Assembly: GCA_963169045.1 (NCBI GenBank) | Contig: CAUJDF010000044.1 | Coordinates: 186,001 to 250,000, forward strand | Direction: 5' to 3' | Source of the DNA: Myxococcota bacterium | GTDB taxonomy: Bacteria > Myxococcota_A > Bradymonadia > UBA7976 > UBA1532 | DNA length: 64,000 nt | Shown: piece after piece, positions 27,532 through 43,913 of the stretch | Numbering within the stretch: the first letter of the stretch is position 1 | Layout of the letters: the number at the start of each line of letters is the position of its first letter | Program-made: the position numbers and the translations under genes | Notes under the pieces: generated by a model | What the model saw: the letters and a program-made list of their open reading frames with translations, nothing else | Databases searched by the model: none | Told to the model about the DNA's origin: nothing

Positions 27532-30500
27532 TCAGTTCTTCAGTTCTTCGAGGGCGCGCTTGGTCAGAGCGTGCTCCGGGTCGTAGCCCAGCGCGCGAGT
27601 GAACATGTCGCGCGCCTTCCGGTCATCGCCGAGCCGCAGCCGCACCACGCCGAGGTGATAGAAGATCTCCACGCGCTGCGCATTGCTCTCAATCTTCATC
27701 TGGTGCAACAGCATCGCCTGGAAGATCTTGAGCGCCTTGTCCCACTCCTCGCGACGGAAGTGGAGCTTTCCGAGCCGGAACAGGTTCGGCAGGTAGGTCG
27801 CGTCGTACTCGAAGCAGGAGGTGTACGAGGCGAGCGCCGCGTCCACGTCGCCTCGCTCCTCGGCCACGCATCCCATTCGGAAGTTGTAGGTGAACAGCTC
27901 CTTGAGGCGCCGCTCAGCCTTCAGGCGCTCGATGATTCGCGCCAGCACGGGCTCCGCTTCGTCATACCGGCCGGCCGCGAACCACGCGTCGAGCAGGGCG
28001 TCGGCGACCGCCAGGTCGTCCGGCGCGAGCGCGTGGGCCTCTCGCAGCGCCTCTACGCGTCCGGCAACGTCACCGGCGCGCTGGCGGAGCGCGGCGATCT
28101 CGCGCAGCAAGGCGACCCGCGGCGCTCCCTCCGCCGTCGCCAGCCGCTTCTCCAGCAGCGAGGCGACTTCGGCGTCGTCGCCACGGTCGCGCGCCAGCTT
28201 GAGGAGCGCCTGGAGCGCCTCTTCGTCTCCCGTCTCGCCGACGGCGGCCTCGAGCGAGGCGCGCGCCTCCTCGGGACGATCGAGCCTCTCGAGATAGAGC
28301 AGGCCCAGCCGCCGCAACGCCTCGCCGCGCTCCGCACCACCCGCCGCGTGCTGGATGGCCCGCGACAGCGTCTCGGCGCAGCGCTCCCACTCCCCGTTTC
28401 GTTCATAGAGACGCGCCAGCACGTTGAGCGCCCCGGCGTGGTTCGGGTCGAGCTCGAGCACCTCGTTGAGCGTCTCGATCGCCAGGTCGGCATCGAGCAG
28501 CTTGCCCTCGGCGACGCCGGCGACGCGGACGAGCAGCGGCAGCCGCGCCGCCCCCTCCACCGTGCCGAGGTGCTCGCGCAAGGTCTCGACGAGGTCGAAC
28601 CAACGCTCGGTCCGCTCGAACAGCGCCTCGAGCTGCTCGAGCGCGCGCGGATCGCCCTCGCGGATGGTCAGCACCTGGCGGTAGTACTCGATGGCGTTGT
28701 CGGGCTGGTCGAGGCGACGATCGGCGGTCTCGCCGAGTGCGAACAGGAGCTCGACGCGACGCTCGTCGTCGCTCACCACCGCGAGCTCCTTCAGCAGGAC
28801 GTCGCGCAGTCGATCCCAGCGCTCCATCGTGAAGTAGATCTCGCGGAGGGCGGCCATCGTGGCCACGTCCTCGGGCTCGTGATCGAGCACGCTCTCGAAC
28901 GCTTGCGCCGCGCCCTCGGGGTCGGCGAGCCGCCCGCGACGCAACTCGCCCGTGCGCCGGTGGATCGCCGCCAGCGCGCCGCCGTCCAACGTGGCGTCGG
29001 CCTTGCGTTCCAGGACGCCGCACAGCGCCGCCCAGTTGCCCGTCCGCTCATGCAGCCGTTCGAGGGCGGCGAGCGCCCGCGCGTCTGCCTCGTCGATCTG
29101 CAGGACGTCTTCGTACGCCGCGACCGCGCCGTCCACGTCGCCGAGCTTCTCGGCGCACAGATCGGCCAGGCGGAGCAGGCGCTGCTTCTTCTCGTCCAGG
29201 TCGAAGAGCATCGCCGCCTTGCGCCGATGCACGTCGGCCAGATCGGCCCACTGCTCGCCCTGCTCGTACAGCGACTCGAGCGCGTCGAGCGCGCGCTCGT
29301 TGGTCTCGTCGATCTCCAGCACCTTGCGGTAGCGGGCGACGGCGCGCTCCGCGTCGCGCAGGCGGCCGCGCGACCAGTCGGCGATACGGAGCAGGTCCTC
29401 GATGCGGAGCTCGAAATCGTCGATGCGCTCCTGGACCGCGTCGAACGCGTCGGCCAGCGCCCTCCACGCGCCACGCTCGGTGGCGACGCGGACGAGCTTG
29501 CCGCGGACGTCGGCGTCGGACGGCGACTCTTCGAAGGCCCAGAGCAGGCGCTCGAGCGCGGCGTCGGCGTCGTTCAGCTTCTGCTCGCGCAGCTCGGCGG
29601 CCTCCGTCCACAGACGCGCCCGCTCGTGCGCGTCGTCCGTGAGCTCGATGCGCATCTCGGTGAGGATGGCGAGCTTGTCCCACTTCTCCCCGTCTCGGTA
29701 GATGGGGTCGAGGACTTCGCTGATCACGCGGCGGCTTTCGAGGTCGACCGCCAGCCGCTCCATCGCCTCGAGCGCGTACACATGGTCGGGCTGCTCCCAG
29801 AGGATCGAGCGGTACAGGTCGATGGCGCCGGGCACGTCGTCCTCGACGACCTCGAGCAGGTAGCCGAGGCGGAACCGCTGGTCGCGCACCACCGGATCGG
29901 CGCCGCCCAACTCGATCTCCTTGCGCAGGATCTCGATGAGGGCCACCCAGTCCTGCCGCTCCTGGTAGAGGCGGTCGAGCGCCTGCAGCGCCTCGAGGTC
30001 GTAGGCATCGTCGCGGCGCAGCGCGCGCCACGTCTCGATCGCGCGCGTCCCGTCGCGCAGCTTGTCGTCGTACAGGCGAGCGAGCCGTCGCGTCAGCGTG
30101 CGCACCACCTCACGATCGAGGACGTGCTCGATGCGCTCCGCATAAAGGACCGCGAGCTCGGCGTGTGCGTTCAGTTCGTCGGCCAGGTCGTGGAGCGCCT
30201 GGGAGATCTCCTCGTCCGAGGGATCTTCGCGGAAAGCGCGCCCGAACGTCTCGAACGCGCTGCGCGGGTGCTTCAGCTGACCGTAGCGCAGCTTCGCAAG
30301 CCGCTTGAGCAGGTCGAGGCGCTCCGCGCGGTCGTCGATGTCGAGGAGTTGCAGCTCGTAGATGCGGGCGAGCGCTTCCGGCTGCCGCCGGTCGCGATAG
30401 TACGGCTCGAGGACGCGGCTGGCCTTGAGCCGGTGGTCCTCATCGCCGAGCAGACGCTCGAGCGCCTGCCGCGCGTCGTCGGCCCGACCGCTGCGACCGA

Positions 30501-33500
30501 GGATTTCGCCATAGATCTCGATGGCTTGTTCATGCTGCCCGAGTTGACTCTCGAGCACGTCGGCGATGCGGAGGTCGAGCGCGTCGACGCGCGCCTCGGT
30601 CCCCTGCTCCTCGGCGACGTGGCCGCGCTCGGTCTCGAGCAGATCGATCAGCTCACCCCAGCGGCCCTCACGGCTGTAGAGGCGATCGAGCGCCTCGATG
30701 GCACCGCGGTCGCGGGCGTCGGTCTCGAGGACCGAGCGGTAGGTGAGGATGGTCTCCGCGGGGTCGTGGAGCTGCTCCTCGCACGTCCGCGCGATGCGGT
30801 AGAGGATGCGCTTGCGCTCGTCGTCGTCCGCCGCCATCTCGAGCTTCTCGCGCAGCACCTGGACCAGGAGCTCCCAGTCGCCGGTGCGCTCGTACAGGCG
30901 GATGAGCGCGTCGATGGCCGCCTGATCCTCGGCGTCCTCCTCGAGCACGCGGCGGTAGGTCTCGATCGCCTGATCCGGACGGTCCAGCACCTGTTCCCAG
31001 ATGTCGCAGATGCGGAACAGCAGCTCCTTCTTCTCGACGACGTCACGCGCGAAGTCGGCCTTGCGCGAGAGCACCGTCACGAGGTCCTGGTGGCGACCCT
31101 CGGCGGCCAGGATGCGCTCGAGGGCGTTGAGCGCCTCGGCGTTGGCCTCGTCGATCATCAGGACCCGGCGATAGCAGTCGATCGCGCGATCGGCCTCGCC
31201 CAGCTTGCGATCGAACGTGGCGGCAACCTTCAGCAGGATCGCCGTCGCCGCCTCGAGGTCGTCGAACGTCTCGATGCCCGTGAGGTAGGCCTCCACGAGC
31301 GGCCGCCACGCCTCGAGCGTTGCGCCGAGGCGGTCGAGCTCGGCCTGAAGATCCGGATTGCCGTAGTCCTCGGCGAAGGCGCGGGCGTACGCGGAGAAGG
31401 CCGCCGCCGGATCGGCGCGGTGCTCCTCCTGGGCCCGAGCGATGCGGGTGAGCGTCTCCATGCGCTGCCAGGGGTCATCCTGGAAGCGAATCTGCACCTC
31501 GAGGACGTGCACCCAGTCGTCCCACCGGCCCCGTCCGGCGTAGATCGGCTCGAGGAGCTGAGCAACGCGCTGCTGCAACGGATCGGGCGGATCGGCGTCC
31601 TCGCGCTCGAGCAGGATGCGCTCGAGCGCGTCGAGCGATCCGGCGTGGCCGGTGTCGTCGTCGTGGAGGACCGTGTTCCAGACCTCGACGGCCTCGGCCG
31701 CGTCGTCGAGCTTCGCTTCGAGCACCTCGCCGAGGCGGTACCGAAGGTCGGCCCGCTCGAGGTCGGTGCGCGCGTGGCGGATCTCGTCGCGCAGCAGGTC
31801 GGCGAGATCCACCCAGCGCTCGCCCGCCGTGTAGAAGCGCTCGAGTGCCTTGAAGGCCTGCCGGTTCTCCGGCTCGATCTCGAGGATGCGGCGATAGGTC
31901 GCGATTGCGCGCTCGGTGTCGCCGACCACGTCCTGGAGAAGCTGGCAGACGCGGAAGTACAGCGCCTTCTGCTCCTCTTCGTCGGAGGAGCTGTCGGCGA
32001 GACGCAGGTACAGCTCGACGAGGTCCTCCCAGGCGGCGGTGCGGCTGTAGAGCTCGACCAGCGCGTCGACCGCCTCCTTCCGGCCGGGCTGGAGGTCGAG
32101 GACCTCGCGGTACACGTCGCGGGCGCGGACGTCCTGCCCGCGGTGCGTCTCCTGGAGCCGGCCGAGCTCGAGTAGGAGGTCAACCTTCAGCTCCGGCTCG
32201 ACGACGTCGGCGACGACCTCCTCGAGCAGGCCCGCCAGCGCGTCGAACGTGTAGCCGGCGCCCGCGAGACGATGCAGATCGGCCCGGTTCGCCTCGTGGT
32301 CGGGCGCGAGCCGTAGCACGCGGCCGCAGGTCTCGAACGCCCCGCCGACGTCGCCGAGCGCGTGCTCGCGCAAGTGCGCGATCTCGCGGAGCAATCCGAC
32401 GCGATCCAGCGGATCCTCCCTCGAGGCCTCCTGCCGCGCCTCGAGGACGGACACGAGGGCGCCGTGCTCGCCGCCCTCGCGGTAGATCGGCTCGAGGAGC
32501 AGGGCCACCGAGAGGCGATCGATGCCGACACGCTCGGCGCCGGCGGGATCGGCGAAGAGCGCTTCGAGGGCGCCCCGCGTCGGGCCGTGGTCCGGGAGAT
32601 CGGCGAGGATGCCGCGCCAGATGTCGAGCGCGCGTTGACCGTCACTCAGGCGCTCGGCCGAGAGCTTCGCGAGGCGGAACTCGACCTCGGCCCGCGGCGC
32701 CCGCGCCTCGAGGATGCCCATGCGATGCTCGTACATCGCCGCGAGCTCCGGCCAGCGCTCGGAGCTCGCCAACAGGCGCTCGAGGCTATCGAGCGCGTGC
32801 CCGTCGCGATCATCCTCGACGATCACCCGACGCAGGGTCTCCACCGCGGCGGACGGATCCCGGAGCATCGACTCCTGAAGCTCGGCCACCCGATAGAGGT
32901 ACAGCTTGCGCTCGTCGACATCCTCGGTGAGCGCCGCCTTGCGCTCGATGATCTCGACGAGCTCGATCGGCTCGTCCGTGATCTCGTACAGGCCCTCGAG
33001 CGCGTCCAAGGCGCGGGCATTGTCGGCCTCGAGATCCAGAACGCGGCGGTAGCCGGCGATGGCGCGGGGGGCATCGTCGAGGCGACCGTGGGCGATGGCG
33101 GCGACCTTCAAGTGGAGCGTGACCGCGCGCTCCGGCGCGTTCGGCACCATGTCCTCGAGCAGGCCCGCCAGCTCGGCGAAGGCGCCGAGGACGTCGGCCA
33201 GCCGCTCGAGCTGCGCCTCGAGCTCGACGTCGGCCTCGGTGTACCGATAGGCCTCGGCCAGCGACGCGAAGGCCGCGGCGGCATCGCCGAGGCGCTCCTC
33301 TTCGATCTGCGCGATGCGGCGCAGCGTCGAGACGCGCGCCTCGACCGCGTCGAGGTCGTCGAGGGTGCCGCGGAGGATGTCGCGCAGCTTGCGCCATTCT
33401 CCGTCCGCCTCATAGAGCGGCGCGAGGATGCCGGCCACCGTCAGACGAACCTCGGGCGCGGCGAACAGTCCCTCGAGCGCCAGCCGCGCGCCCGGGTGCC

Positions 33501-36500
33501 GGGGCGTGCGCCGGAGCACGGCGCGGAAGCGCTCCACCGCCCGCTCCGTCTCGCCGAGGGGCGCCCGCAGCAGGGTGCCCATGCGGAAGTCGAGCTCGTC
33601 GCGCGTCGCGTCGTCGGCGGCCAGCGCACGCTCCCGCTCGAGGATCTCGAGCAGGTCGACGGGGCGCTCCAGTCGCGTGTAGAGGCGGTCGAGGCGAGCG
33701 AGCGCCTCACCGTCGTCGGCGTCGAGGTCGAGGATGCGCCGCAGGACCGAGACCGCCTCGTCGGGGCGGTCGAGGCGAGCTTCGTACACCGAGGCCGCGC
33801 GGAAGAGGAGCTCCTTGCGCGTGTTCTCGACGCGGTCGGCGTGATCGAGGAGCACGTCGACGAGCGCCTCCCACTGTCCGGCCGCCTCGTGCAGCCGCTC
33901 GAGCGCGATGTGGGCCCGCAGGTCCTCGGGATCGACGTCGAGGCGGACCCGGCGGTACGCGTCGATCGCGCGCTCGCGGTCGCCGATGAGGCTCTCGTAG
34001 ATCTCGCCGGCACGGAAGAGCAGCGCTGCCTTCTCGCGGCCCTCCATCGTGACGGCGACGCGCCGCTCGATGACCTCGACGAGCGCGTCGACGTCACCGG
34101 TCCGCTCGTAGAGGCGGTCGAGGCTCGCCAGCGCCTGCGCATCGTCCGCATCCTCGTCGAGGATGCGTCGGTTGAAGGCGATCGCCTGGTCGAGGTTGCC
34201 CACGCGCGTCTCGTACAGGTCGGCGACGCGTCCGAGCATCTCCCGACGCAGCGCCGGATCGAGGTCGGCGCCGGCGTCGCCCTCGAGACCCGCCCGAAGC
34301 ACGAGCGCGAGCGCCTCCCATGCGTTCAGCTGCTCGGCCAGGCGCAGCAGCTGCGCGAGCGTGTCGGGATGACCGTACTGCTCCCCCATCGCGGCGCCGT
34401 AGCTGGCGAAGGCCGCACGGGCGTCGCCGCCCTCGCGCTCCTGCAGCTCGGCGATCCGGACGTGCAACGCCATGCGCTCCGCGGGCGAGCGGGCGTCGCC
34501 GAGGCGGATCTGCGCCACGTGCACCGACTGCGCCCAGTCGCCACGCCGCGCGAAGACCGGCTCGAGAATGTCGCTGGCGCGGGCGCGCAGGTCGCGATCG
34601 GTGGCGGTGTCGGCGTCGCGACCGATCAGCAGGGCTTCGATCGCCGTGATCGTGCCCGCGTGCTCGCCGTCGAGCTCGAGCACCTCGGCGTAGCGCTCGA
34701 GCGCCTCGGCCGGACGATCCAGATGCACCTCGAGGGTCTGCGCGAGCTGGAAGGTGAGCTCCGCCCGCTCGGCGCCCGCCGCGTCGTCGAGGCGCGTCAG
34801 GAGCAGATCGGCCAGATCGCCGAAGCGCCCGACGTTCCGGAAGATGCGCTCCAGCGCCGCCACCGCCTTGCGGCTGCCCGGCTCCTCGTCGAGCACGCGC
34901 CGATAGGCCGAGACCGCCTGCTCGGGCGCCTCGAGGACCTCTTCCCAGAGGTCGCCGATGCGGAAGAGGCGCGCAATGCGGGCGTGGACGTCGTCGAGCA
35001 GCGGCAAAGTGCGCTCCACGACGTTCACGAGGCCACGCCAGTCTTCGAGGCGGGTCGCCAGCCGGTCGACGGCCTCGAGCAGCTCGAGATCGTCACCCTG
35101 GGCCTCGAGCAATGCGTCGAGCGTCGCGCGCGCCTCCGCGAACCGGCCGAGACGCTCCTCGAGCAGCGAGGCGAGCCGGCGGCTGTAGTCGGCCGCCGAC
35201 GCCATGTCGTGGCCGACGTCGGCGCCGCCGAGGGCGAAGCGGCCGTACAGCTTCGCGAGGTCGTACCAGCTGTCGATCGACTCGGCGAGGCGCTCGAGCT
35301 CCGCGCGGACCGAGCCGTCGCCACGGTCCTCGGCGAGGAGACGCCGCCAGGAGTCGAAGGCGCCCTCGGCGTCGCCGAGGCGGGCCTCGCGCAACTGCGC
35401 GACTTCACGGAGCAATTTCGCGCGGAGGGCGCGATCGTCGCTGCCGTCCACCTGGAGCTCGAGCACGCGGCGCAGGCCGCTCCAGTTCTCGACGGCGCGC
35501 ATGTGGGGCTCGAGGACCTTCGCCGCCCGGGGCGCGAGCCGGCCACCGAGGAACCGCACGAGCGCCGACACCGTCATGGCGTGGTCCGGCTGCTGCTCGA
35601 GCACGCCTGCGTAGCGATCGAGCGCGGCCTCGTCGTCTCCGCGCACCTCGGCCAGCTCGCCGAGCCGGAAGAGCAGCGCCGCCACGGCGGCCGGCTCGCG
35701 GGTCAGCGACAGCTCGGCCTCGAGGTGGCCGGTCAGCCCATCGACGTCTCCGCTCGCCTCGGCCAGTCTTTGCAGACCGTGCAACGCGTCGAGGCTTTCG
35801 CCGTCGATGTCGAGCAGCTTCTCGAAGGCCTCGCGCGCTGCCGCAGCGTCGTCGCGGACGGTCTCGTGCAGCCGGCCGATCGCGGCGAGGATTGCCGGCT
35901 TGTCCTTCTTCTTCGCGCGCTCGAGGCGGGCGTTCTGGATGCCGAGCAGATCGTCCCAGCGCGCCAGCTTCTCGTAGAGACCGAGCAGCGCCATCAGCAC
36001 GTCGTCGGTGTCGCCGGCGAGCTCGCGGACGCGTTCCAGGTGCTCGGCGGCCTCGTCGTAGCGGCCCAGCTCCTTCGCGCACGCGTCGGCGAGGACGCGG
36101 CGCACGCGCACCTCGGCCTCGGCGTCGCTCAGCGTCGGCGCAAGCGCCCCCAGCAGATCGGCGAGCGGCGCCCACTGGCCGCTCGAGGCCGCCGTGCGGC
36201 GCGCCTCTTCGAGCAGATCCGCCCGCTCGGGCGCCGTCCGGAGCGCGCTCGCGAGCCACCGGTAGGCGGAGGACGTGTCGCCCCGCTTCTGCTCATGGAC
36301 CGCCGCCAGCTCGACCATGAGCGCGACGGGATCGCCCGGCTCGTTGCGCAGCACCACCTCGAGCACGCGCACGAGATCGTCCCAGCGCTCGTCGCGCGTG
36401 TAGTGCGGCACCAGCGTGCGCGCCGCGTCGAGGTTGTCGGCGTCCTCGCCGAGGATGCGCTCCCAGCACTCGATGGCCGCCGCCTCGTCCTCGAGGTTCA

Positions 36501-38979
36501 CGCGGCAGATGCGCGCCTGGCGCTGGTACAACGAGACGCGCGTCGCCACGTCGGCCGCGTTCGACGCCGCGCCGCCCAGCAGGCGCACGAAGCCGGCCCA
36601 GTCGCCGCGCTCCCCGTACAGCCCCTCGAGGGCCGACCAGTCCGAGCGACGCAGGTAGAGCTCGCGCAGGTAGTTCTCGGCGTGCAGGTCGCCCGGCTGC
36701 AGGCGCAGCACGGCCCGCCACGTCTCGGCCGCACGATCTTCGTCCGCGAGCGCCTCGGCGTAGAGATTGCCGAGCTTCTTGAGCCAGGAGACGCGCTCCG
36801 CGTCATCGGCGGCGCGCTGCGCCTGCGCATCGAAGAGCGACGCGAGGTCCTCGTGGCGATCCGTCTTGCGGTAGAGCGCCTCGAGCGCCTGCCAGGCGCG
36901 CGCGTCGTCGGCCCGTCGCTCGAGCACCTCGCGCCAGAGCGCGATGGCTTCGTCCTTCTCGTCCAGCTTCTCGGCGGCGATCCTGGCCATCTCGGTCAGG
37001 CGCTCGACGCGGGCGTCGCCCTGCAGAAGCTCGAGCTGACGACGGTAGATGCCGTACAGGCTGCGCCAGTCTTTGCGATGCCGGTAGATCTCGACGAGCT
37101 GATGGATGGCGCTCTCGTCCCGCGGGCGCTTCGCCAGGATCGCCTCGAGGTAGTCGATCGCCTGGTTCGGGTTCGAGAACTTCTCGAGCCACAGCCGCGC
37201 GATCTCGCGCAGCAGCTCGACGTGCTGGTTCTCGTCGGCCGTGGCGTCGGCGCGACGCCGGAGGATGCCGATCAGATCGTTCCAGCGCGCGCTCGCCTCG
37301 TACTTCTCCTGCAGCGCGTCGAGCGCCTCTGCGTTGACCGGATCGATCTGCAGAATCTGGTTGTAGGTGTTGACCACCATCACTTCCAGATTCAGCTGGT
37401 CGCGATAGATCTCGATCATCCGCCGATAGATGCCCACCCGCGCCTCGACGTCCGCCTCCGACGTCAGGTTCAGGTCCTCTTTGAGGAACTCGAGCAGCGC
37501 GTTCCACTTGGCGGTGTCGAAGAAGAGCCGGCGCAGCGACTCACGCGCCACTTCGTGGTCGGGTCGGAGCTTGAGGATCGACTTCCAGATGTCGATGGCC
37601 TTCTCGGGGTTCTCGAGGCGCCGCTCGGCGACCTCGGCCATGCGCAGACCCAGCTGGATGCGCGCCTCGATCGCCTCTTCGATGTTCTGCCTCGACGCCA
37701 GCGTGGCGAGCAGGTGTTTCCAGTCGCCCTTCGCCTCGTAGTACTCCGCGTAGAAGTCCAGCATGAGGCGATTGCGCGGGTCGTTGAGCTTGATGCGCTT
37801 GAAGTAGTTCTCGGCGGCTTCCAGATCCTGGACCTTGCGCCACAGGATCATCGCGATCTGGACCAGCATCGCGGCTTCGTTGCCGCCGCGCCCACGGGTG
37901 CGCAGCGCCGCCTCGTAGACCGCCACCAGCTCGAGCCAGCTCTCGCCGTCGCTGTAGTGGTCCACGCAGAAGTTGAGCGCCTCGGTCTCGACGGCGTCGA
38001 GCTTCAGCACCTCGCGGTACCAGCGCGCCGCTTCGTCGGCGTCGTTGCGCTCGTGGCGGGCGACCCGGGCGAGGCGCTGATAGAGCGCCGTGCGCTCCTG
38101 CTTGCTGGCGGTCGCCTCCGCGCGCCTGGCCAGAAACGCCGTCAGGTCCTGCCAGCGTGCGTTCGCCTCGTAGAACTGCTCGAGCAGGATGCGCGCGTGG
38201 TCGTTGCGCGGATCGGTGTCGAGCGCCTGCTGCAGGATCTGCTCGATGCGCCCGTCGTCGGGGCACTCCTTGATCCAGACGTCGACAGCCTCGATCTGCA
38301 GGGCGACGCGCTTGCGGGCGTCTCGCGTGCCGTCGGCCTCGGCGAGGAGCTGCTCGAACCGCTGGCGGCTCTCGTCGTGCACCGAGCTGATGAACTGCTC
38401 GAAGTCCCCCGCCCGCGGGTGGTCGGGCACGAGCTTGATCGCCGCGCGCACGCACAAAGCCGCGTCGCCCGGCTCGCCCATGCGCAAGCACGCGTCCGCC
38501 ATCTCGAAGTACAGGTCGGCCTGCCGCTCCTCCGACTCGGTCACCTGCAGCTCGAGGCTGTACAGCTGGAGGACCAGCTTCCAGTTCTCCTGCCGGACGT
38601 AGATCGATCGTGCCGCCTCGAGCGCCCGCGTCTGCTGCGGATCCAGCTTGAACGCGCGCTGATAGCGCAGCATCGCCTGCTCGATCTCGCCGAGCCGCTC
38701 CTCGAAGAGCTGCCCCACGAGCAGCGTCAGCGTCGACTCGGCGACCGGATCGCCGAGGGCGGCGGCGTGCTGCTCGAGCCGCTCCACGAGGGCGAGCCAG
38801 CGGCCTCGCACCTCGTCGGAGGGCCGCGCCTGCGCGCGCTCGGCGGTGAGGGCCACCAACCCGTCCCAGTCGCCGGCCTCGATCAGCGCCGCTTCGAGGC
38901 GCGCGAGCGCCTCGGCGTCGTCCGGGTTGGCGGCGAGCTGGTTGCGGAACGTCTGCAGTGCCGTGTTCATAGAAGCCAT
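27532..38979 (-). CDS. Giant TPR-repeat protein (about 3815 residues)
   Basis: A single uninterrupted frame of about 3815 residues made almost entirely of tandem helical repeats. No signal peptide, transmembrane segment or enzyme motif is visible, so it is probably cytoplasmic. The basic unit is about 72 residues, two TPR-like helix pairs: one starts 'LESLYEQGEQWADLADVHRR' and the next 'LERLHERTGNWAALCGVLER'. Each has a middle 'LGDVDGAVAAYEDVLQIDE'-type segment. Longer units insert an extra 'ASRVLEPYYRD' or 'LLEPIYRE' pair. The start is ATG 38979 (MASMNT) or ATG 38970. The stop is 3 bases before psd. Such arrays act as protein-binding scaffolds; the partner is unknown. Repetition also explains very long open frames on the other strand. 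Confidence 0.88.
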   Translation of the reverse strand: MASMNTALQTFRNQLAANPDDAEALARLEAALIEAGDWDGLVALTAERAQARPSDEVRGRWLALVERLEQHAAALGDPVAESTLTLLVGQLFEERLGEIEQAMLRYQRAFKLDPQQTRALEAARSIYVRQENWKLVLQLYSLELQVTESEERQADLYFEMADACLRMGEPGDAALCVRAAIKLVPDHPRAGDFEQFISSVHDESRQRFEQLLAEADGTRDARKRVALQIEAVDVWIKECPDDGRIEQILQQALDTDPRNDHARILLEQFYEANARWQDLTAFLARRAEATASKQERTALYQRLARVARHERNDADEAARWYREVLKLDAVETEALNFCVDHYSDGESWLELVAVYEAALRTRGRGGNEAAMLVQIAMILWRKVQDLEAAENYFKRIKLNDPRNRLMLDFYAEYYEAKGDWKHLLATLASRQNIEEAIEARIQLGLRMAEVAERRLENPEKAIDIWKSILKLRPDHEVARESLRRLFFDTAKWNALLEFLKEDLNLTSEADVEARVGIYRRMIEIYRDQLNLEVMVVNTYNQILQIDPVNAEALDALQEKYEASARWNDLIGILRRRADATADENQHVELLREIARLWLEKFSNPNQAIDYLEAILAKRPRDESAIHQLVEIYRHRKDWRSLYGIYRRQLELLQGDARVERLTEMARIAAEKLDEKDEAIALWREVLERRADDARAWQALEALYRKTDRHEDLASLFDAQAQRAADDAERVSWLKKLGNLYAEALADEDRAAETWRAVLRLQPGDLHAENYLRELYLRRSDWSALEGLYGERGDWAGFVRLLGGAASNAADVATRVSLYQRQARICRVNLEDEAAAIECWERILGEDADNLDAARTLVPHYTRDERWDDLVRVLEVVLRNEPGDPVALMVELAAVHEQKRGDTSSAYRWLASALRTAPERADLLEEARRTAASSGQWAPLADLLGALAPTLSDAEAEVRVRRVLADACAKELGRYDEAAEHLERVRELAGDTDDVLMALLGLYEKLARWDDLLGIQNARLERAKKKDKPAILAAIGRLHETVRDDAAAAREAFEKLLDIDGESLDALHGLQRLAEASGDVDGLTGHLEAELSLTREPAAVAALLFRLGELAEVRGDDEAALDRYAGVLEQQPDHAMTVSALVRFLGGRLAPRAAKVLEPHMRAVENWSGLRRVLELQVDGSDDRALRAKLLREVAQLREARLGDAEGAFDSWRRLLAEDRGDGSVRAELERLAESIDSWYDLAKLYGRFALGGADVGHDMASAADYSRRLASLLEERLGRFAEARATLDALLEAQGDDLELLEAVDRLATRLEDWRGLVNVVERTLPLLDDVHARIARLFRIGDLWEEVLEAPEQAVSAYRRVLDEEPGSRKAVAALERIFRNVGRFGDLADLLLTRLDDAAGAERAELTFQLAQTLEVHLDRPAEALERYAEVLELDGEHAGTITAIEALLIGRDADTATDRDLRARASDILEPVFARRGDWAQSVHVAQIRLGDARSPAERMALHVRIAELQEREGGDARAAFASYGAAMGEQYGHPDTLAQLLRLAEQLNAWEALALVLRAGLEGDAGADLDPALRREMLGRVADLYETRVGNLDQAIAFNRRILDEDADDAQALASLDRLYERTGDVDALVEVIERRVAVTMEGREKAALLFRAGEIYESLIGDRERAIDAYRRVRLDVDPEDLRAHIALERLHEAAGQWEALVDVLLDHADRVENTRKELLFRAASVYEARLDRPDEAVSVLRRILDLDADDGEALARLDRLYTRLERPVDLLEILERERALAADDATRDELDFRMGTLLRAPLGETERAVERFRAVLRRTPRHPGARLALEGLFAAPEVRLTVAGILAPLYEADGEWRKLRDILRGTLDDLDAVEARVSTLRRIAQIEEERLGDAAAAFASLAEAYRYTEADVELEAQLERLADVLGAFAELAGLLEDMVPNAPERAVTLHLKVAAIAHGRLDDAPRAIAGYRRVLDLEADNARALDALEGLYEITDEPIELVEIIERKAALTEDVDERKLYLYRVAELQESMLRDPSAAVETLRRVIVEDDRDGHALDSLERLLASSERWPELAAMYEHRMGILEARAPRAEVEFRLAKLSAERLSDGQRALDIWRGILADLPDHGPTRGALEALFADPAGAERVGIDRLSVALLLEPIYREGGEHGALVSVLEARQEASREDPLDRVGLLREIAHLREHALGDVGGAFETCGRVLRLAPDHEANRADLHRLAGAGYTFDALAGLLEEVVADVVEPELKVDLLLELGRLQETHRGQDVRARDVYREVLDLQPGRKEAVDALVELYSRTAAWEDLVELYLRLADSSSDEEEQKALYFRVCQLLQDVVGDTERAIATYRRILEIEPENRQAFKALERFYTAGERWVDLADLLRDEIRHARTDLERADLRYRLGEVLEAKLDDAAEAVEVWNTVLHDDDTGHAGSLDALERILLEREDADPPDPLQQRVAQLLEPIYAGRGRWDDWVHVLEVQIRFQDDPWQRMETLTRIARAQEEHRADPAAAFSAYARAFAEDYGNPDLQAELDRLGATLEAWRPLVEAYLTGIETFDDLEAATAILLKVAATFDRKLGEADRAIDCYRRVLMIDEANAEALNALERILAAEGRHQDLVTVLSRKADFARDVVEKKELLFRICDIWEQVLDRPDQAIETYRRVLEEDAEDQAAIDALIRLYERTGDWELLVQVLREKLEMAADDDERKRILYRIARTCEEQLHDPAETILTYRSVLETDARDRGAIEALDRLYSREGRWGELIDLLETERGHVAEEQGTEARVDALDLRIADVLESQLGQHEQAIEIYGEILGRSGRADDARQALERLLGDEDHRLKASRVLEPYYRDRRQPEALARIYELQLLDIDDRAERLDLLKRLAKLRYGQLKHPRSAFETFGRAFREDPSDEEISQALHDLADELNAHAELAVLYAERIEHVLDREVVRTLTRRLARLYDDKLRDGTRAIETWRALRRDDAYDLEALQALDRLYQERQDWVALIEILRKEIELGGADPVVRDQRFRLGYLLEVVEDDVPGAIDLYRSILWEQPDHVYALEAMERLAVDLESRRVISEVLDPIYRDGEKWDKLAILTEMRIELTDDAHERARLWTEAAELREQKLNDADAALERLLWAFEESPSDADVRGKLVRVATERGAWRALADAFDAVQERIDDFELRIEDLLRIADWSRGRLRDAERAVARYRKVLEIDETNERALDALESLYEQGEQWADLADVHRRKAAMLFDLDEKKQRLLRLADLCAEKLGDVDGAVAAYEDVLQIDEADARALAALERLHERTGNWAALCGVLERKADATLDGGALAAIHRRTGELRRGRLADPEGAAQAFESVLDHEPEDVATMAALREIYFTMERWDRLRDVLLKELAVVSDDERRVELLFALGETADRRLDQPDNAIEYYRQVLTIREGDPRALEQLEALFERTERWFDLVETLREHLGTVEGAARLPLLVRVAGVAEGKLLDADLAIETLNEVLELDPNHAGALNVLARLYERNGEWERCAETLSRAIQHAAGGAERGEALRRLGLLYLERLDRPEEARASLEAAVGETGDEEALQALLKLARDRGDDAEVASLLEKRLATAEGAPRVALLREIAALRQRAGDVAGRVEALREAHALAPDDLAVADALLDAWFAAGRYDEAEPVLARIIERLKAERRLKELFTYNFRMGCVAEERGDVDAALASYTSCFEYDATYLPNLFRLGKLHFRREEWDKALKIFQAMLLHQMKIESNAQRVEIFYHLGVVRLRLGDDRKARDMFTRALGYDPEHALTKRALEELKN

Positions 38980-39087
38980 TCTCGAGCGGTGTGACCGATG
39001 CCTTCCCGGGAGCAGGCCGGGAGCCGAAGGCGTGGACGCGGGCGGCGGCGGAGTCCCAGTGACCCCCCGGTGCCCGACGCCCCGGGC

Positions 39088-39117
39088 ATGGTACAAAAGC
39101 CCGATCCGGGAGCACAA
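39088..39117 (-). promoter_or_regulatory. Possible promoter for the giant TPR gene
   Basis: On the minus strand, TTGTGC and TACCAT with an 18-base spacer, about 110 bases before ATG 38979. Matches are partial, but this is the best candidate in the 222-base divergent region 38980-39201. That region also holds an AT-rich patch (39137-39153) nearer the plus-strand gene. Confidence 0.3.
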
Positions 39118-39201
39118 GGCGCATGGAAGTGCCGAAGCTTCCAAAATATTCGAGGCTTACGGCGCGAGGGCGGTCCGGAGGCGGCATTGGCGCGTTGGGC
39201 G

Positions 39202-40821: not shown

Positions 40822-41958
40822 TCAGACGAGGGTGACCAGGCACTCGAACGCGCGCTTCAGCTGGTGGCCCGTGAATTCCAGGACTTCGCCCCCGAGCCCC
40901 AGGGAACGCGCCGCCGGATGGTCGGCGGGATCCTCGGGACCGTCCGAAAGGTCCCCGACACCGAACCCTCGTCGGCAGGCGATCACGTCGGCGAGGCGGA
41001 CGGCGGCCACGAGCTTGCGGTGGCCGAAAGCCTTATGCGGCTGATGATGGAAGAGGGCCACCTCGCCGAACGACTCCCCGAAACCCCACTTCTGGAGGAG
41101 CGCCTGCCCGAACTGCCCATGCAGGCCGTCGATCGTGCGCGCCACCTCCTCTCGGCCGAAGGGGCGTCCGGTCGGCGACTCGGTCTCGATGTCGTCGAAG
41201 ATCTTCCAGAGGACGGCTCGCCCGACGTCGTGCAGGAGCCCGTGCAGGAAGAACGTGCCGGGCGACGCGCCCTCGACCTCCGGTGCGAGCAGATCGGCGG
41301 CAAGGGCCGTCGCCAGGCTGTGGTGCCAGAGATCGCGCATCTCGGCCTCGCGGCCGGTCGTGACGAACCCGAAGAGCGCCTTGTTGCCGGCCGCCAGCGC
41401 ATAGCGCGTGAGGTCGCGGATGCCGACGCGCACCAGCGCCTCCTGGATCGAGCGCGGCTGACGCCCTCCGCTGGGGACGACGCTCGACGCCTGGTTCATC
41501 ACGCCGCTGCGCAGGACCGGATCGCGCTCGATCACGTCCGCGACCTCGGCCACGTCGTGATCCGGATCGCAGAGCAGCCGGTTCAGGCGAACCACCGGCT
41601 CCGGCAGCGTCGGCACCTTGAGCACGGAGCGCCGGTACCGCTCGACCACCGCCTGCACGGGAGAGCGGACGTCGGCCTCGATGTCGCCGAGCGCCACGGG
41701 CGTCGTGTCGAGCGCGCGCTCGTCGTTCGCCGCCATGGCCGCGTGCTCATCGAGCTCGATGGCCCGGTCGATCCCGTCCTGCAGCCCCGACAGGTAGAGA
41801 CGCGTCACGAGCTTCCGCCACCCGGCCTGGGCGGACGGATTGAGTGAACGCATCAGTCGCCGGCCGAGGCCCGTGTCGTCAATCCGTGTGAGCAGCGCTT
41901 CGACCGCTTCCCCTTCGGGTACGACGACGGCGACCCCGCGATAGATCAGCTTCGCCAA
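40822..41958 (-). CDS. HDOD-domain signalling protein
   Basis: About 378 residues. The central and C-terminal part (from about residue 110) is an HDOD domain: 'LPEPVVRLNRLLCDPDHD', 'ADVIERDPVLRSGVMNQAS', 'SIQEALVRVGIRDLTRYALA', 'LWHHSLATALAADLLA' and 'FLHGLLHDVGRAVLW'. HDOD proteins are non-enzymatic relatives of HD phosphohydrolases used in signalling, motility or stress control. No ATG or GTG starts the domain cleanly; I chose TTG 41958 (MAKLIYRG...), which follows CAGGGGACAAGG. The frame is open farther upstream but becomes Pro/Arg/Gly-rich and crosses the riboswitch, which argues against a longer protein. Confidence 0.8.
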   Translation of the reverse strand: MAKLIYRGVAVVVPEGEAVEALLTRIDDTGLGRRLMRSLNPSAQAGWRKLVTRLYLSGLQDGIDRAIELDEHAAMAANDERALDTTPVALGDIEADVRSPVQAVVERYRRSVLKVPTLPEPVVRLNRLLCDPDHDVAEVADVIERDPVLRSGVMNQASSVVPSGGRQPRSIQEALVRVGIRDLTRYALAAGNKALFGFVTTGREAEMRDLWHHSLATALAADLLAPEVEGASPGTFFLHGLLHDVGRAVLWKIFDDIETESPTGRPFGREEVARTIDGLHGQFGQALLQKWGFGESFGEVALFHHQPHKAFGHRKLVAAVRLADVIACRRGFGVGDLSDGPEDPADHPAARSLGLGGEVLEFTGHQLKRAFECLVTLV

Positions 41959-42199: not shown

Positions 42200-42215
42200 T
42201 GGCACGCGCCTTGCG
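42200..42215 (+). promoter_or_regulatory. Sigma-54 (-24/-12) promoter
   Basis: TGGCACG-CGCC-TTGC is a perfect match to the sigma-54 consensus TGGCACG-N4-TTGC. The predicted start of transcription is about 42226, at the 5' side of the c-di-GMP riboswitch. Transcription would need RpoN and an enhancer-binding ATPase. Confidence 0.75.
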
Positions 42216-42225
42216 GTTGAGCGTG

Positions 42226-42320
42226 TCCGGGCGCGGCGGATGCCGCACTCCTCGAAACGGCAAACCACCCGCGAGAGTGGGACGCAAAGCCAGGGGTCCC
42301 CCGTGGACGGCCCGGCCACC
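42226..42320 (+). ncRNA. c-di-GMP-I (GEMM-I) riboswitch
   Basis: The core at 42251-42320 follows the GEMM-I aptamer: GGCAAACC, a P2 hairpin closed by the GNRA tetraloop GCGA (42271-42274) with CCAC/GTGG pairing, then the nearly invariant GGGACGCAAAGCC (42279-42291). A P3 hairpin GTCC-CCCGT-GGAC (42296-42308) carries the distal part, followed by GGCCCGGCCACCG. By alignment with the Vibrio cholerae Vc2 aptamer, the position equivalent to G20 is G, which favours c-di-GMP over 3',3'-cGAMP; that is an inference. The 3' end is a few bases before the GAAAGGAG ribosome binding site, so control of translation is likely. The exact 5' boundary is approximate. Confidence 0.88.
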
Positions 42321-42334
42321 GAAAGGAGCCCGTG

Positions 42335-42646
42335 ATGAACCGCATCTCCACCGTGCGCGCGCTCGGCGCCGCCGGCCTCGCCGGCGTGATGGCGCTCGGC
42401 GCCCTCGCGCCGGCTGCCCATGCCGACGAGCCGGACAGCGTTTCCTTCGCCTTCCCGGTCGCGGACGGCGAGCTGCCCCTGCCCGTCCCGGCGGACCGCA
42501 TCCTCACCGTCGCCATGGAGCGCGACGGCGAGGCCCTGCGCGGCGTGATCCTCCTCACCGACGGCGGCGTGATCCACTTCGACGGTGCCCGCAGCCACCC
42601 GCTCGGCGCGCCGCCCGCCGACACGTTCGCCGCCCTCGGCAAGTAG
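42335..42646 (+). CDS. Small exported protein under c-di-GMP riboswitch control
   Basis: 103 residues. ATG 42335 follows a strong AAAGGAG site (a GTG at 42332 is also in frame). The signal peptide is MMNRISTVRALGAAGLAG... with predicted cleavage after A-H-A, leaving about 72 residues beginning DEPDSVSFAF. The mature part is acidic and beta-like ('LTVAMERDGEALRGVILL', 'TDGGVIHFDGARSHPLG'), without cysteines or known domain. Its control by sigma-54 and a c-di-GMP riboswitch suggests a role in surface, motility or matrix biology, by analogy with other GEMM-I targets. The function is unknown. Confidence 0.82.
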   Translation: MNRISTVRALGAAGLAGVMALGALAPAAHADEPDSVSFAFPVADGELPLPVPADRILTVAMERDGEALRGVILLTDGGVIHFDGARSHPLGAPPADTFAALGK

Positions 42647-42672: not shown

Positions 42673-42719
42673 GACGGCGCCTCCCGAAGCCGCCGCTTGA
42701 CAGGTCGGGAGGCGCCGTC
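42673..42719 (+). terminator. Strong hairpin after the riboswitch-controlled gene
   Basis: A 15-bp perfect stem (GACGGCGCCTCCCGA at 42673-42687 with TCGGGAGGCGCCGTC at 42705-42719) and a 17-base loop, 27 bases after the stop codon. No U tract follows, so it may protect the mRNA end or act with Rho rather than as a classical terminator. Confidence 0.6.
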
Positions 42720-42769: not shown

Positions 42770-42785
42770 TGGCGCGCATCTTGCT
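42770..42785 (+). promoter_or_regulatory. Second sigma-54-like promoter
   Basis: TGGCGCG-CATC-TTGC differs from the sigma-54 consensus at one position (A to G) and keeps the GG and GC at the required 10-base separation. It lies 76 bases before the outer-membrane protein gene at 42861. Confidence 0.55.
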
Positions 42786-42860: not shown

Positions 42861-43913
42861 GTGAAGAGGACGTTGCAGTTCGTGACCTGTGCGCTGGGCG
42901 TCGCGGGCCCGGCCACGGTCCTGGCCCAGACCCCGGACGCGGCGCCCGCCGCACCGGCCGCCAGCACCGCGGGCGCCAGCGGCATCGCGAGCGAGGCCGA
43001 AGAGAGCTACCCGGTCAGCGCCACCTTCGGCGTCGGCTATCGTCTCAACCACGCGAACTTCGTCGAGACCGAGGGCGAGGCCGCCAACTTCGGCACGCAG
43101 CGCCTCTCGTTCACCGCCGATGCGGGCTACGACATCACCGACTCGATCTCGGCGAGCGTCAGCTTCGGCGTCGACAAGGAGCTGAGCAACACCTTCGACC
43201 GTCCGGGCCTCGGCGGTGGTCTCGCGTCGGGCGGCGGCAGCACGCACGTCCGCCGCGCCACCGAGCTCCGCGACGTTGGCCTCGGCGTCGCCTGGAGCAA
43301 CTTCTACTCGATCCCGGTGGTCGACATCGGCCTTTCGGCGGGCCTCGACGGCCAGCTGCCGGCCTCCAAGGCGAGCCGCTCCGCCGGTTACCTCTTCGGC
43401 CTCACGCCGAGCCTGACCCTCGATTGGTCGATCGGCGACTTCTCCTCGAGCCTCGGCTTCTCGTACTCGCGGTTCTTCGCCGAGGAGGCGACGCAGAAGG
43501 TCAACTGCGATCGCTTTCCCGAACAGTGCCGCATCAGCGGCAACGATCTGGGCGTTCCGCTCGGGCTGCACGACGTCTCGGGCGAGCTCAAGCTCGGCTA
43601 CAAGTTCTTCGGCAAACTCAACACGTCGGTCAGCTACTCGCTCGGCAACTCCTGGGGCGCGGTCGAGTTCGAAGACGACGTGTTCACGGCCGACATGGCC
43701 CAGACGGGCCTGCAGGCGGGCACCGGCTACCACTCCACCCGCATCGCCGCGTCGTACAAGCTCTTCGACAAGACCTCGATCGGCATGAGCATGGCCACGT
43801 CCCGCGCCGTCTATAAGGCCGACGGATCCGGCGTCACCATGCCCTTCTTCGACATGGACTCCGACCTGCACCACCGCACGTCGTACACCGTCTCGATCTC
43901 CCAGGGTCTCTGA
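42861..43913 (+). CDS. Outer-membrane beta-barrel-like protein
   Basis: 350 residues from GTG 42861 with a signal peptide (MKRTLQFVTCALGVAG..., cleavage near VLA|Q) and an Ala/Pro spacer. The remainder alternates polar and hydrophobic residues in short strands typical of a transmembrane beta-barrel ('VSATFGVGYRLNHANF', 'QRLSFTADAGYDITDSIS', 'SSLGFSYSRFFAEE', 'GELKLGYKFFGKLNTSVSY'). One cysteine pair lies in a likely loop ('NCDRFPEQC'). It has no close match that I recognise; a channel or anchor is plausible. It follows the riboswitch gene and has its own sigma-54-like promoter, suggesting shared regulation. Confidence 0.75.
   Translation: MKRTLQFVTCALGVAGPATVLAQTPDAAPAAPAASTAGASGIASEAEESYPVSATFGVGYRLNHANFVETEGEAANFGTQRLSFTADAGYDITDSISASVSFGVDKELSNTFDRPGLGGGLASGGGSTHVRRATELRDVGLGVAWSNFYSIPVVDIGLSAGLDGQLPASKASRSAGYLFGLTPSLTLDWSIGDFSSSLGFSYSRFFAEEATQKVNCDRFPEQCRISGNDLGVPLGLHDVSGELKLGYKFFGKLNTSVSYSLGNSWGAVEFEDDVFTADMAQTGLQAGTGYHSTRIAASYKLFDKTSIGMSMATSRAVYKADGSGVTMPFFDMDSDLHHRTSYTVSISQGL

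Follow-up and report, generated by a model that had tools for sequence, protein, structure and literature searches.

The question raised by this locus, which lies in a window of 64,000 nucleotides (the whole stretch of DNA analysed), is what a sigma-54 promoter box and a cyclic di-GMP riboswitch standing one behind the other would control together, and in which direction. The features concerned are as follows.

40822–41958, minus strand: divergent HDOD/HD-domain gene (Pfam PF08668), a conserved neighbour
42200–42214, plus strand: sigma-54 (-24/-12) promoter box TGGCACGCGCCTTGC, an exact consensus with the top PWM score in the window and an excess in the genome
42229–42250, plus strand: predicted 5' leader hairpin GGGCGCGGC-GGAU-GCCGCACUC, the 3' arm of which overlaps the P1 5' strand
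42248–42252, plus strand: P1 5' strand CUCCU, the anti-Shine-Dalgarno (anti-SD), with five Watson-Crick pairs to 42324–42328
42249–42324, plus strand: c-di-GMP-I (GEMM-I) riboswitch aptamer, c-di-GMP-I-GGC subtype (Rfam RF01051, RF03167)
42324–42328, plus strand: Shine-Dalgarno (SD) AGGAG, the P1 3' strand, 6 nt from the ATG at 42335
42335–42646, plus strand: open reading frame of an exported protein of 103 aa, a function-orphan, with a signal peptide at about 1–30 and a mature part of about 73 aa
42673–42719, plus strand: perfect 15-bp inverted repeat without a U-tract, downstream of the 103-aa gene

The promoter box, the aptamer, the pairing of the SD with the anti-SD, the signal peptide and the conservation of the unit are read from the sequence. 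We consider it likely that a sigma-54 promoter transcribes a c-di-GMP-I riboswitch controlling the translation of the small exported protein, with the switch OFF at high c-di-GMP. In the proposed mechanism, sigma-54 RNA polymerase, opened by some enhancer-binding protein, would start near 42226, and the aptamer would fold at the 5' end of the mRNA. At high c-di-GMP, the ligand would bind the three-way junction and stabilize P1, the 3' strand of which is the SD itself, and translation would be turned off; at low c-di-GMP, P1 would open and the protein would be made and exported. Production of the protein would thus require both an active enhancer signal and a low level of c-di-GMP, as in a motile or dispersing state, and the role of the protein would presumably be at the cell surface.

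The description of the sigma-54 box as perfect, made in an earlier sequence-only reading of this DNA, was confirmed, since 42200–42214 agrees with the consensus TGGCACG-N4-TTGC at 15 of 15 positions, is the sole exact match in the 64-kb window and is also its highest-scoring sigma-54 site in a PWM scan (16.2 bits). Throughout the source genome, the exact pattern was found 25 times, against 2 for the reversed pattern (a 12-fold excess), and because most of the 25 perfect sites sit approximately 45–60 nt upstream of a start codon with an SD, they appear to be mostly real promoters. The distance from the window box to the start codon is 135 nt, and its excess over approximately 45–60 nt is about the length of the aptamer; transcription is expected to start near 42225–42227, approximately 25 nt upstream of the aptamer. 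The genome contains rpoN (PF04552, 223 bits), and a search for a sigma-70-type site near the locus found none. A second sigma-54-like box, TGGCGCGCATCTTGC, with one mismatch and the second-best score in the window, was observed at 42770–42784, approximately 77 nt before a CglE-like gene (42861–43913).

The aptamer had been claimed to have a core of the Vc2 type, and the comparison with Rfam bore this out: RF01051 scored 55.0 bits at 42249–42324, against a gathering score of 35 (E 1.7e-9 for the genome), and the ligand-contact bases G, A and C match. These bases are G42259, A42286 and C42319, located by eye, the equivalents of G20, A47 and C92 in Vc2 numbering. The fold has two imperfections, namely a C-A mismatch in P2 (42269/42276) and an A-C at the base of P3 (42288/42317). 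No second c-di-GMP-I aptamer was found in the genome (9.0 Mb, 109 contigs), which holds 11 GGDEF matches. RF03167 (c-di-GMP-I-GGC) was the best-scoring Rfam subtype, only marginally above its gathering score (59.7 bits versus 59). The subtype assignment is not firm: of the five orthologous aptamers described below, two are reported as plain RF01051, and in the subtype test those of genomes G011 and G005 reached 58.4 and 54.6 bits, both below the cut-off of 59. We regard the element, from its sequence match, as a genuine c-di-GMP-I riboswitch and an ordinary member of this known class.

Since the equivalent of Vc2 G20 at 42259 is G, and not the A that marks GEMM-Ib, c-di-GMP is the expected ligand and 3',3'-cGAMP is unlikely. 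GEMM-Ib riboswitches are known in Geobacter (PMC6456294) and aptamers of the A20 type are present in Myxococcota in our phylum survey, and the base at the Vc2 G20 position influences selectivity without strictly fixing it (PMC9262584); with G at 42259, we nevertheless give very little credence to 3',3'-cGAMP as the ligand in place of c-di-GMP.

The 3' end of the aptamer meets the ribosome binding site (RBS), as had been proposed, for the aptamer overlaps the SD at 42324, and P1 pairs all five SD bases with 42248–42252. As ligand binding needs and stabilizes P1, and as Vc2, the best-known member of the class, is described as switching translation OFF, with P1 as its key element (PMC9262584), high c-di-GMP probably blocks the production of the 103-aa protein; the sequence-only reading had named no direction for the switch. 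At the window locus alone, the P1/SD pairing was no better than that of shuffles (p about 0.2). In energy models, the SD was partly paired also without P1, and because the SD is not cleanly exposed in the apo state according to the folding programs, an ON switch is retained as a rival. In such a switch, c-di-GMP would free the SD, which in the apo state would be masked by an alternative fold, through pairing either to CUCC within the first codons or to the 5' leader, that the holo aptamer would break. Unconstrained folding of the window RNA did pair GGAG with CUCC in the first codons, and the SD stayed mostly paired even when P1 was blocked in folding; however, the coding-region CUCC was not seen near the starts of the orthologous genes in G002 and G009, the P1 anti-SD is conserved across many families, and the formation of P1 itself covers the SD. 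We therefore judge the ON direction improbable and keep to translational repression by c-di-GMP.

The leader hairpin at 42229–42250 could, speculatively, serve as an anti-anti-SD stem trapping the anti-SD strand; its folding was no better than that of shuffles. The idea that a competing hairpin on the 5' side (P0) plays this anti-anti-SD part more generally looked suggestive by eye in some relatives, but the statistics did not support it, and it was set aside.

The product had been described as a small exported protein with no recognised domain, and the data agree: its signal peptide ends by eye between AHA and DE, and the comparison of the 103-aa protein with Pfam and NCBIfam gave no match. 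There was nothing below E 0.13 among PDB sequences, a single-sequence search of the genome contigs gave no match, and an AlphaFold model on a five-sequence alignment of the family was poor (pLDDT 58, pTM 0.37, at most three beta strands). PilY2 (PF14481) was considered for the protein; it scored 13.4 and 11.6 bits over approximately 22 residues in two orthologues, below the Pfam cut-off of 25, with no match in the window protein itself, and this identity was rejected. The inverted repeat at 42673–42719 is a likely 3' end of the transcript. Elsewhere in the window, an open frame of 3870 aa (27532–39144, minus strand) apparently consists of TPR-like repeats.

The search for homologues of the protein, proposed in the sequence-only reading, covered 56 other genomes of the same class and gave clear homologues in only four (G002, G005, G009 and G011), all uncultured Myxococcota of the same family. 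These orthologues share 33–39% identity, each begins with a signal-peptide-like segment, and all four genes are preceded by a c-di-GMP-I aptamer ending on their RBS (five of five genomes with the window). Searching with a DNA pattern of the aptamer returned these four relatives and two unrelated sites. The divergent HDOD neighbour is kept upstream in all four (46–49% identity), and in G002 the conserved order runs on past a gene recognized by eye as a Lon-like protease to homologues of the CglE-like, cyclase, TPR and ClpX genes of the window. Because protein, aptamer and HDOD neighbour, and in G002 the wider gene order, are conserved together, the riboswitch–protein unit is by this evidence old within the family, the protein travelling with the aptamer, and the 103-aa protein is, by the same comparison, a narrow orphan family. 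A second c-di-GMP-I aptamer was observed in G002, G009 and G011, and in G007 the only one (L033, L034, L035 and L036); in these the start codon is mostly distant, and they precede a conserved exported protein of approximately 200 aa resembling an outer-membrane barrel. This aptamer is missing from the window genome.

The promoter is less constant. The window box lies 59 nt before the aptamer GGC; in G002 and G005, sigma-54-like sites lie at 73 and 65 nt and score 11.4 and 11.6 bits, which is only suggestive because a reversed-sequence control also gives scores of 10–13, and the PWM scan found no site upstream of the aptamer in G009 and G011. The layout given in the sequence-only reading is right, and its proposal that the gene combines an enhancer-dependent input with second-messenger control is a fair inference for the window genome, whereas its sigma-54 part is not conserved.

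The phylum survey comprised 96 Myxococcota c-di-GMP-I aptamers, of which 58 sit directly on an RBS, taken to mean that the aptamer ends no more than 20 nt from a start codon. An anti-SD-like 5' strand was found in 45 of the 58 direct aptamers versus 11 of the 38 with distant starts (Fisher p 3e-6, an optimistic value as the sites are related), and in 11 of 17 families. The P1 duplex energy was -8.6 kcal/mol, against -6.6 for shuffled 5' strands (combined p 5e-9, optimistic in that kinship is ignored). The SD-in-P1 layout is the commonest among the surveyed aptamers, mostly before exported proteins, and is not special to the window locus. An A at the Vc2 G20 position, GEMM-Ib-like, occurs in 11 surveyed aptamers of several families, all direct (L124, L125, L137, L138, L144, L147, L159, L163, L165, L166 and L170), and a C in one, also direct (L149, G139:C89). 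A MAG labelled Gammaproteobacteria (JANQPY) contains two aptamers, L045 and L049, each approximately 150 nt before related exported proteins.

Sigma-54 scores of at least 10 bits upstream were found for 5 of the 96 aptamers, and equally for 5 in the reversed control (maximum 12.9). Only two sites exceeded this control, the window and L116 (G167:C168:5847-5921), whose perfect TGGCACGTCAGTTGCA box scores 20.2 bits and lies 60 nt upstream of the GGC of the aptamer. These data bear on the rival reading that the window box is a chance match or inoperative, so that the gene would be driven by another promoter, as is presumably the case for G009 and G011, and the riboswitch alone would matter. The absence of the site at two of the five orthologous loci and of the box from most Myxococcota aptamers would suit that reading. 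Its exact consensus at the right distance, the 12-fold genome excess, the consistent positioning of the remaining perfect matches and the same arrangement with nearly the same spacing at the independent L116 speak against it, and we hold a non-functional box to be unlikely. The pairing of sigma-54 with the riboswitch looks real, yet it is rare and only partly conserved.

Each part belongs to a known kind, but the pairing of a c-di-GMP riboswitch with sigma-54 is unusual; in the literature found, of which our coverage is incomplete, no paper described a c-di-GMP riboswitch transcribed from a sigma-54 promoter. A recurrent Myxococcota AND-NOT module, in which sigma-54 and an SD-masking c-di-GMP-I riboswitch would reserve small exported proteins for low c-di-GMP, with a new family here, is a tentative and rather doubtful generalization. 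The NtrC-like regulator EpsI/Nla24 of Myxococcus xanthus binds c-di-GMP (PMC4877007), and if the activator of the window promoter also did so, c-di-GMP would control both transcription and translation, which is speculation. The locus offers a testable two-input control, by an enhancer-dependent promoter and a riboswitch masking the translation start. Because the compact SD-in-P1 layout is most frequent there, mostly before exported proteins, Myxococcota are a good place to learn the roles of orphan surface proteins.

Compared with known systems, the locus resembles Vc2 of Vibrio cholerae (c-di-GMP-I, RF01051) in the aptamer fold, the ligand-contact bases and the predicted translational OFF control via P1. 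It differs in that the SD itself forms the P1 3' strand, whereas in Vc2 the masked RBS lies at a distance from the aptamer, going by the title of Inuzuka 2018, a reference of PMC9262584. With the GEMM-Ib (3',3'-cGAMP) riboswitches of Geobacter it shares a homologous aptamer and the control of exported or surface proteins, but those have A at the Vc2 G20 position where the window aptamer has G. Although its exported, probably lipid-anchored protein is by eye unrelated to that of the window, L116, from another Myxococcota family, is alike in the perfect box, the spacing (60 versus 59 nt), the aptamer placed on the RBS and the exported product.
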